Translations under genes and position numbers: made by a program
The notes under the pieces: model-generated
What the model saw: only the letters and a program-made list of their open reading frames with translations
Database searches by the model: none
What the model was told of the DNA's origin: nothing
In this document: piece after piece, positions 20,466 to 23,102 of the stretch
How the letters are laid out: each line of letters begins with the position of its first letter
Numbering within the stretch: the stretch's first letter is position 1
Assembly (NCBI RefSeq): GCF_003544895.1
Contig: NZ_CP032125.1
Location: 1,936,001-2,000,000 of the forward strand
DNA length: 64,000 nt
Origin: Profundibacter amoris
Lineage (GTDB): Bacteria; Pseudomonadota; Alphaproteobacteria; Rhodobacterales; Rhodobacteraceae
Direction of reading: 5' to 3'

Positions 20466-20969
20466 ATGACAAGTGACGCACAAACCCTGACTGATCTGAT
20501 GCCTGCGCTGATCCGGCTGGCCCGCATTCTGGCCCCCAGCCCCGACATGGCCGAGGACATGGCCCAAGAGGCCCTGTTGCGTGTCTGGGCGCGGATGAAA
20601 AACGGGGCCACAATCGAGGATTTGCGCCCCTACCTGATGACCACCCTGCGCAACGCCAGCACCAAACCGGCACAGCAACATCAGGAACTGACCGAACAAA
20701 ACACCCCGGGCAAACCGGCCGAAGTCTGGAGCCGCTTTGCCTGTGGTGATGTTAACGACGCCATAACCCGCTTGCCGGCGGATCAGGCAGACCTATTGCG
20801 CATGGCTGCCTTGCAGGGCACCAGCTATGCCCGGATAGCCAAAACCTTTGACCTACCTATAGGAACCGTGATGTCCCGCATTTCCCGCGCCCGCGCGCAA
20901 TTGCGCGCGGATCTGAATTTGCCCAAATCCAAAGCCGTGGAAACCCTGTTGCAGGACATGGCTTCCTAA
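20466..20969 (+). CDS. ECF-type RNA polymerase sigma factor
   Basis: 167 residues from the ATG at 20466, which follows GGAGG; the upstream extension to 20409 lacks a site. Region 2 has PDMAEDMAQEALLRVWARM. Region 4 has LPADQADLLRMAALQGTSYA and a helix-turn-helix ending VMSRISRARAQLRADL. This fits short ECF sigma factors. No anti-sigma gene is next to it; downstream is the convergent luxI two bases away. It may control the divergent EF-hand gene or itself. Target promoters are unknown. Confidence 0.88.
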   Translation: MTSDAQTLTDLMPALIRLARILAPSPDMAEDMAQEALLRVWARMKNGATIEDLRPYLMTTLRNASTKPAQQHQELTEQNTPGKPAEVWSRFACGDVNDAITRLPADQADLLRMAALQGTSYARIAKTFDLPIGTVMSRISRARAQLRADLNLPKSKAVETLLQDMAS

Positions 20970-20971
20970 GC

Positions 20972-21637
20972 TTATGCGGTTTGGCGCAGTTCCAGATCTT
21001 GGTGGATCGGAAGAACTTTGGCAGTTGGACGTTCTGCTGGCTGAATCCGGGTTACAGGTTTCGCAGACATGCTGAGAACACCGTATTTACGGCCGTCTTC
21101 CCGATTCTGATAAGGCTTGCCGATCAGGTTTGCATTGTAGCCCAATTGGCGCAGTGCCCGCATAAAGGGGGGACGCATCAGTGCAATCAGTTCTGCCGCA
21201 CCTTCCTTGCTGGCGGTTCTTGCCAAACCGTCAACAACCAGGGCCAAACATTTCTGGCGATCCTCGGCACTTTCCAGATCATCCGAAATGACCAGACGTG
21301 TGCATTCCCAAACCTTTGGTGTTCTGATCTCGTCACCCATAATGCTTTTGGGGATTTCGGCCAGTTTTCCCTGAACAGCGTCGCGCAACATATATGTATA
21401 ATCCCCCCACGAGGATGTGGTCGGCATGCCACGCGCTCCGCCAATCACCTTGCCATCATGCAACACCAACGAATAATAAGCCAGTGGATTATCATACTGG
21501 TCCATCTCGTAGATGTCATTGTGCGGAATATCCCAACCCAGGGTATCGACAAAAAAATGTTTGCGTAAAGCAAGGTAATCAAAATAGGCGGTTCCGTACT
21601 GATGCAGCTCGGACATGTTGAAGGTGATGTTTTCCAT
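20972..21637 (-). CDS. luxI: Acyl-homoserine-lactone synthase, LuxI family
   Basis: 221 residues. Conserved LuxI positions are visible: the N-terminal Arg-Phe-Trp set in LALRKHFFVDTLGWD, an acidic motif in YEMDQYDNPLAYY, the GGARGMPTT block and ECTRLVI with Glu and Arg. It makes N-acyl-homoserine lactone from SAM and acyl-ACP. Two ATGs compete: GGAG is only two bases before the first (21643) but seven before the second (21637), so the second is chosen. It follows luxR on the same strand by 122 bp. The acyl chain cannot be predicted. Confidence 0.92.
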   Translation of the reverse strand: MENITFNMSELHQYGTAYFDYLALRKHFFVDTLGWDIPHNDIYEMDQYDNPLAYYSLVLHDGKVIGGARGMPTTSSWGDYTYMLRDAVQGKLAEIPKSIMGDEIRTPKVWECTRLVISDDLESAEDRQKCLALVVDGLARTASKEGAAELIALMRPPFMRALRQLGYNANLIGKPYQNREDGRKYGVLSMSAKPVTRIQPAERPTAKVLPIHQDLELRQTA

Positions 21638-21708
21638 TTTCATTCTCCTTTATGGAGAGTGAATTAGAACTTGATCTGACGCTTTTGTTAACTGCTTTTC
21701 TTCAAATA

Positions 21709-21754
21709 GGCCAAATTTTTCCAAATTGTTGACATTTTATGGTCAATATTGGCC
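21709..21754. promoter_or_regulatory. Nested inverted repeats before luxI
   Basis: GGCCAA (21709-21714) and TTGGCC (21749-21754) enclose TTGAC (21729-21733) and GTCAA (21742-21746). They fill the gap between the luxR stop and the luxI start. It may be the LuxR operator for luxI or a processing hairpin. It is not a match to the classical 20-bp lux box that I can defend. Confidence 0.35.
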
Positions 21755-21759
21755 CGATT

Positions 21760-22368
21760 TCAGATCAAACCGAACTCCATCGCCTTTGTGGCCGCCTGTG
21801 CGCTGTTGTTTGCATTCAGCTTGAGTTTGGCATTTTTCAATCGTTGCTTGATCGCCCCCTGGGATACACCCAGCTCGGCTGCCATCTGTTTTAGCAACAT
21901 ACCGTTCTTCACCATGGCCAATACTTCTTTTTCTGCCTTGGTTAAATTACTAGGCGGTTTTGTCGCAATATGAAGGCGGATAATTTCTTCTGACAGCCGC
22001 GCAATTTCCTCATCCGAGAATTCCCGGTCCGAACGGGCAAATGACCCGAAACTACGCTGCCCGGTCTGGTCGTTATCAACGCAAGAGATTGCCGCACCGA
22101 ACCGCAAGGAATAGGTTGAAGCCAAACCCAGAACACCCATTGGGTCATCTTGGGCGATTTCGCTCCAGCGCACAGCGCCTGTATTTGTATAAACCCATTT
22201 CATTACCGGATCATGCAATATAAACCCTTGGGATGTATAGATTTTCACCCACTCTGTCGGTAATTTATTTTGCTCGAATACAGGAAATGCAAACCCGACC
22301 CGCAAGGCCAAGTAATAGCCTGCAAGCGCGAAATCAGAAAATACCGAAGTGGTATCAAAATCTTTCAT
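21760..22368 (-). CDS. luxR: LuxR-family AHL-responsive regulator
   Basis: 202 residues, somewhat shorter than the usual ~240. The autoinducer-binding domain has the conserved ligand residues W40, Y44, D53, P54 and W68 (EWVKIYTSQGFILHDPVMKW and beyond). The helix-turn-helix starts at about residue 142 with LTKAEKEVLAMV and includes MAAELGVSQGAIKQRLKNAK. It should bind the signal made by LuxI and control transcription. It is upstream of luxI on the same strand and divergent from a paralogue lacking the DNA-binding part. Confidence 0.9.
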   Translation of the reverse strand: MKDFDTTSVFSDFALAGYYLALRVGFAFPVFEQNKLPTEWVKIYTSQGFILHDPVMKWVYTNTGAVRWSEIAQDDPMGVLGLASTYSLRFGAAISCVDNDQTGQRSFGSFARSDREFSDEEIARLSEEIIRLHIATKPPSNLTKAEKEVLAMVKNGMLLKQMAAELGVSQGAIKQRLKNAKLKLNANNSAQAATKAMEFGLI

Positions 22369-22371
22369 AGG

Positions 22372-22490
22372 TTGTTATGCCTCATCCCACCTACCGTAAC
22401 GCGAATCTGTATAAAAATATATGGATATCTAAAACAGATTTGTCTAGGTTATAGTCATTGTACTCTACAACCACAATGCGAGCATAACAA
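22372..22490. repeat. Inverted repeats flanking the luxR / LuxR-like divergent promoter region
   Basis: TTGTTATGC (22372-22380) and GCATAACAA (22482-22490) are exact inverse copies, each lying a few bases before the start codon of luxR or of the divergent gene. Inside, AATCTGT (22404-22410) and ACAGATT (22434-22440) form a second perfect inverted repeat with a 23-base spacer. The outer pair looks like duplicated 5' leader sequence; the inner pair could bind a regulator shared by both genes. Confidence 0.6.
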
Positions 22491-22492
22491 AT

Positions 22493-22978
22493 ATGACGGA
22501 ACGTTCTGAAATTAGTCCAATTCTGGAAGAGCTAAATCCGTTGTGCCCTGCGGGCTATGCTTTGGCTCTCCATATAACCTTTACAACGCCAAACTTCTTG
22601 TTTCAGACCTATTCTGGCGACTGGACCGAGCATTACACACAAAATGGATTGGTGTTGTTTGATCCGGTTGTGCGTTGGGGTTTTGAAAATACCGGTGTTA
22701 GCACTTGGGGTGCCCTTGCCGGGAATGATTCGCATGATGTTTTGAAATCTGCCGCCGATTTCGGGCTGAAATTCGGAACTGTTATCGCAATAGTAGAAGA
22801 GGATTCGCGCACGATTGGCGGATTCGCCCGTCCGGATCGGGATCACACAGAAGAAGAAATTGAAAAACTGACCTCGCTTTTGAAGAAAATCCACCATCAC
22901 ACGATTGCCTCAAAAGATTTGTCAGAAGAAGATCAGGCAGCCCTGAAACGTCTGTCCGTTTCCCTGACCCACGGTTAA
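22493..22978 (+). CDS. Stand-alone autoinducer-binding domain protein (truncated LuxR paralogue)
   Basis: 161 residues that align along their length with the adjacent LuxR: W44, Y48, D57, P58 and W72 match the five conserved AHL-pocket residues. Shared runs include DPV-x-x-W, NTG and FAR-x-DR. It ends at LSEEDQAALKRLSVSLTHG, where LuxR has LTKAEKEVLAMV, so it stops within the first helix of the DNA-binding domain; no HTH remnant was found downstream. It may bind AHL or form inactive heterodimers with LuxR, as the truncated TrlR does with TraR in Agrobacterium; that role is inferred. Confidence 0.85.
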   Translation: MTERSEISPILEELNPLCPAGYALALHITFTTPNFLFQTYSGDWTEHYTQNGLVLFDPVVRWGFENTGVSTWGALAGNDSHDVLKSAADFGLKFGTVIAIVEEDSRTIGGFARPDRDHTEEEIEKLTSLLKKIHHHTIASKDLSEEDQAALKRLSVSLTHG

Positions 22979-23102
22979 TGCGTACCCAATCCAACTGAAA
23001 ACAATCAGCCAACCCGCGACACGATTCTGTGTTTCGTAAGAATATACATTCGGAGCGCTTGTTGAATCCGGTCGGGTTTGATGTGCCAATCCGTTTTTTC
23101 CA

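Follow-up and report, generated by a model that had tools for sequence, protein, structure and literature searches.

In Cereibacter sphaeroides, CerM binds DNA without AHL, CerN binds CerM only when AHL is present, and CerN together with AHL relieves DNA binding by CerM, both in vitro and in E. coli (PMC11655674, published 2024). Another precedent is TrlR of Agrobacterium, which is 88% identical to TraR, a regulator that requires AHL for DNA binding (PMC11655674). A 2013 review of Roseobacter luxRI arrangements describes a topology D in which two luxR loci adjoin luxI, with Roseobacter sp. CCS2 and SKA53 listed under it; its text mentions neither HTH loss nor a function (PMC3824088). Ligand-domain-only truncated LuxR proteins, often near luxR, also appear in a 2015 survey of LuxR solos, and that survey suggests that they bind ligand or LuxR; the available part of it does not define a receptor role, a family of orthologues or a conserved trio (PMC4338825).

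We compared these systems with a locus in the window, by which we mean the whole 64,000-nucleotide stretch of DNA that was analysed. The sequence-only reading of this DNA had placed luxI and luxR on the minus strand with a 161-residue protein divergent from luxR, and all three ORFs lie exactly there (Table 1). The window genome is a single contig of 3.56 Mb that also holds two further luxR/luxI pairs and one more LuxR. The additional pairs are found at G000:C1:142452-143634, with a GtaR-like LuxR at 142452, and at 88546-89779, one pair being GtaR/GtaI-like; the additional LuxR, at 1599263-1599733, has no luxI nearby among the matches.

Table 1 Features of the luxI-luxR-short gene locus (window positions)
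Feature	Position	Strand	Description
luxI	20972..21643	-	AHL synthase, 223 aa; Pfam Autoind_synth 7.3e-13
luxR	21760..22368	-	Full-length LuxR-type regulator, 202 aa, in the CerM orthologue class; Pfam Autoind_bind + GerE 2.1e-9
luxR-short gene divergent intergenic region	22369..22492	.	
Short gene	22493..22978	+	HTH-less LuxR-type AHL-binding domain, 161 aa, orthologous to CerN; Autoind_bind 3.1e-12
CAACCACAATGCGAG	22468..22482	+	Window copy of conserved element CAACCNNAAAGCGAG; first base 25 nt upstream of short ATG
Raised-divergence island	20951..23090	.	Against sister species L056, by sliding nucleotide identity and dS; matches trio

The short protein matches Autoind_bind only, with no Pfam match to GerE or HTH, the domain of a LuxR-type transcription factor that the luxR product does carry. 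Its pocket residues W44, Y48, D57, P58 and W72, listed in the sequence-only reading, are present together with Y40 and G95, and all seven are invariant among 78 aligned short proteins. AlphaFold predicts a complete ligand domain with confidence (pLDDT 87, pTM 0.83), and the predicted fold matches RhlR, SdiA, QscR, LasR and TraR. With Autoind_bind and six conserved pocket residues, the protein has the predicted ligand domain of a LuxR-type AHL receptor. Translating three frames through 23262 revealed no HTH downstream of the short gene that a frameshift or readthrough could restore. The protein was said to stop in the first helix of the DNA-binding domain, and it does end at the counterpart of that helix; we refine this point in that its tail has a conserved, family-specific ending of its own, L(K/R)x(M/L)S(I/V)xxTH (78 aligned short proteins), which marks the end as stabilised and not as cut off at random.

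We searched relatives for the same divergent trio by scanning GTDB species-genome contigs, and the best 80 loci, seeded with one conserved peptide and hence a lower bound and a sample picked for similarity, show the short gene divergent from luxR in 80/80 and luxI in 75/80, in one case 2.2 kb distant. The five loci without luxI comprise two that end close to luxR and three that have the short gene and luxR but no luxI. In L058, L100 and L116 the short gene and luxR occur with no luxI within the 12-kb locus, as with cerN/cerM. None of the 32 best short-protein relatives in the family and genus genomes has an HTH, and every one of them is divergent from luxR, with luxI adjacent in nearly all cases; the trio is found in at least four of eight genomes within the genus. 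Among relatives, an HTH is encoded by 0/123 short ORFs and by 140/140 full-length LuxR ORFs, some loci being counted twice in both figures. The divergent arrangement exceeds chance. Absence from close relatives combined with a decayed pocket, named beforehand as grounds for abandoning the sequence-only reading, is the opposite of what these 32/32 and 80/80 loci and the 78 aligned short proteins with invariant pockets display, and its central description, a LuxR paralogue that lacks a DNA-binding domain, keeps its pocket and is the built-in neighbour of luxRI, is borne out. Roseobacter sp. CCS2 and strain SKA53 of topology D are among our trios (L118, L129), which span many more genera. The trio is widespread in Rhodobacteraceae; as far as the cited literature shows, the pair was previously known in one species. 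On a metagenomic Actibacterium contig (L057 1442-1972), an in-frame stop splits the short gene, reflecting a pseudogene or an assembly error.

To place the two LuxR-type proteins, we read CerN and CerM from a Cereibacter sphaeroides genome recognised by its 100% match to a C. sphaeroides plasmid LuxR. There, a 160-aa CerN is encoded divergently to CerM, and the CerM pocket has the published residues F-Y-D-P-W-G; CerN is the only characterised relative of the short protein that we found. In the ligand-domain tree, one branch (support 96/94) sets off the short proteins together with CerN, and a second (support 100/99) sets off the partner LuxRs together with CerM and a further C. sphaeroides LuxR; this final tree omits five rows (CerR, two window-genome LuxRs, a C. 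sphaeroides plasmid LuxR and a LuxR of another genus genome) and keeps CerN, itself on a long branch. An earlier tree with remote outgroups had left the placement of CerN unresolved because of long branches. By sequence, we assign the short protein as the orthologue of CerN and LuxR as that of CerM. Both systems pair an HTH-less protein of about 160 aa, pocket kept, with a divergent full-length LuxR, and each member falls in the clade of its counterpart; the pocket of the DNA-binding partner is substituted in CerM and may likewise be weakened here. However, C. sphaeroides has cerR-cerI beside cerM, whereas the window trio has a directly paired luxI (PMC11655674), and the CerM/CerN biochemistry comes from C. 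sphaeroides.

The comparison with TrlR gave a different result. The short protein shares 36% identity over 135 residues with the neighbouring LuxR and falls in a separate clade, so a recent truncation of that luxR is ruled out; where TrlR is a near-identical recent copy of its regulator, the window protein is an ancient paralogue within a conserved gene trio. The proposal that the short protein interferes with LuxR therefore survives in part: contact between the proteins is likely, as measured for CerN (PMC11655674), but a recent truncation of the TrlR type gives way to an ancient paralogue family. Because the pair is orthologous to CerN/CerM, where CerN with AHL removes CerM from DNA, the likely mechanism is CerN-like.

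We interrogated which of the two proteins reads the signal by comparing protein distances across 45 trios and using IlvB to control for species. LuxI distances follow those of the short protein (partial r 0.51±0.08 given LuxR) and not those of LuxR (-0.07±0.11 given the short protein), while the short protein and LuxR follow each other (0.48±0.10 given LuxI and species); the errors are jackknife estimates, the analysis is correlative and the taxa are non-independent, so these values are indications, not proof. The LuxR ligand domain alone gave the same outcome. Linkage predicts the opposite of LuxI-short protein co-evolution, since it is luxR that adjoins luxI. The canonical control, GtaR-GtaI in 22 of the same genomes, gave a similar but noisy 0.48±0.31, and unlinked GtaR against trio LuxI gave 0.00.

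The pockets of the two proteins differ at one position. The residue corresponding to TraR Tyr53, which we located as the Tyr four residues ahead of the pocket Trp in a register supported by the RhlR alignment, is Tyr in 78/78 short proteins, whereas only 1/77 LuxR partners has Tyr there and the other 76/77 have Leu, Phe or Met. TraR Tyr53 is equivalent to LasR Tyr56 and RhlR Tyr64 and hydrogen-bonds the amide carbonyl of the AHL. In the window LuxR (AlphaFold pLDDT 91), this position is Leu36, and W40, Y44, D53, P54, W68 and G91 are retained; the substitution at Trp57 of CerM, to Phe, is therefore not seen here, W40 being kept, and the replacement falls at the Tyr53 position instead. The other six of the seven checked residues are kept in nearly all LuxR partners, so LuxR may well bind AHL itself.

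Comparison with the sister species, the metagenome-assembled Marinosulfonomonas sp. S010_73 (L056) and a close relative of the window genome, showed that the trio lies in an island of raised divergence. Flanking genes have 95-98% protein identity with dS of 0.21-0.36, LuxR has 97% with dS 0.91, LuxI has 71% with dS 2.8, and the short protein has 51% with saturated dS. The lowest LuxI identity (37%) is at residues 121-150, which presumably belong to the acyl-chain part. Since the dS of LuxR is also above that of the flanks, the history of the island as a whole is unusual, and the divergent luxI and short alleles could reflect selection, exchange or both. The surrounding DNA is about 90% identical to L056, and the island may mark repeated allele replacement at the locus. 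A single shared donor of luxI and the short gene is unsupported, LuxI being nearest to the sister species and the short protein nearest to Cochlodiniinecator. Co-evolution, pocket data and allele divergence together suggest that the short protein, not LuxR, is the main receptor for the LuxI signal.

We therefore favour, at a probability of roughly 70%, a reading in which the trio encodes a split quorum-sensing receptor of the CerM/CerN kind together with the synthase that serves it. LuxI would make an AHL that the short protein would bind through its complete pocket; LuxR would occupy DNA without signal, and the liganded short protein would contact it via the ligand domain and remove it from its sites, so that target genes switch. 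At the window locus, we infer AHL binding, short protein-LuxR contact, AHL-free DNA binding by LuxR and the output genes. The earlier suggestion that the short protein buffers the signal or poisons LuxR dimers changes accordingly: CerM-class partners sit on DNA in the absence of AHL and come off it with CerN-AHL, so the short protein would relay the signal instead of only damping it, and the co-evolution and pocket data suggest that it is more than a buffer, namely the main receptor for the LuxI signal.

The best surviving alternative, which we nonetheless regard as unlikely, is a dominant negative like TrlR, in which AHL would activate LuxR in the conventional way, while inactive heterodimers of LuxR with the short protein would damp or delay the response. 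The TrlR precedent itself (PMC11655674, PMC13043044) and the six retained pocket residues of LuxR are in its favour; it is at odds with the AHL-free DNA binding of the orthologous CerM (PMC11655674), with the missing Tyr in the LuxR partners and with the lack of LuxI-LuxR co-evolution. We give distinctly less weight to a signal sink, a short protein that only binds and stores AHL and sets a threshold with no contact to LuxR. The complete pocket and ligand fold and the co-evolution with LuxI would suit such a role, and the 2015 survey suggests sequestration for proteins of this kind (PMC4338825), but the sink does not explain why the short protein co-evolves with LuxR given LuxI and species, or why three loci retain the short gene and luxR without luxI, and CerN does contact CerM (PMC11655674). 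It is very improbable that the short protein mainly targets another LuxR of the cell, such as the GtaR-like one, and is merely linked to this luxR: the genome does encode further LuxRs, and the short ligand domain is about as close to the GtaR class (38%) as to its neighbour (36%), but linkage to the partner class is strict in 80/80 loci and the short protein co-evolves with LuxR. A degenerating copy without function, for which one might cite the in-frame stop in L057 and the rate of the short gene, the fastest-evolving of the three, is refuted: across 80 loci the gene keeps its length and position, its pocket and its C-terminal ending, and dN/dS is 0.06 (L056 vs L059).

Between the divergent luxR and short gene lies a conserved 15-bp element, CAACCNNAAAGCGAG, that starts 21-30 nt upstream of the short ATG in most loci. 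It is exact in 30/81 regions and present with at most three mismatches in 53/81, against 4/81 in shuffled sequence. The window variant is matched exactly only once in its own genome, and 21 genomes picked for element-bearing trios hold 23 copies of the pattern CAACYNNAAAGCGAG, once per genome with a second copy in two. The search thus recovers almost only the short-gene site and does not reveal output genes; as the element is private to this locus, we read it as a candidate operator or leader element of the short gene. In C. sphaeroides, CAACC alone is recognisable, 23 nt upstream of cerN. Identity with the CerM site TATCCAAAAAGACAG was rejected, since agreement at 9/13 specified positions (a by-eye count) is too weak. 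Directly ahead of the luxI start, CTCTCCATAAAGGAGA at window 21644-21658 (-) could form a stem-loop in which the luxI ribosome-binding site would be paired, and the same kind of dyad, ACTC-N8-GGAG, is found in 17/57 dereplicated luxR-luxI intergenic regions.

As far as the cited literature shows, the family-wide trio, the missing LuxR Tyr, the co-evolution of synthase and short protein and the private cis element are new. A broader picture, which we hold only tentatively and at somewhat less than even odds, is of a split LuxI/LuxR system across the family, in which the HTH-less protein would be the receptor, LuxR would bind DNA almost blind to the signal, and synthase and short receptor would evolve as a specificity cassette around a constant LuxR, perhaps exchanged between species. 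The CerN/CerM mechanism, known from one species, would extend to a module in at least 80 loci, and as these include named Yoonia, Loktanella and Defluviimonas strains, it is testable in culturable organisms. Specificity inferred from the luxI-adjacent LuxR would target the wrong protein in the trio-bearing group. Were the short protein the receptor, the signal of a luxI/luxR locus could change while its DNA-binding regulator stayed the same, and signal dialects would have a simple way to diverge.
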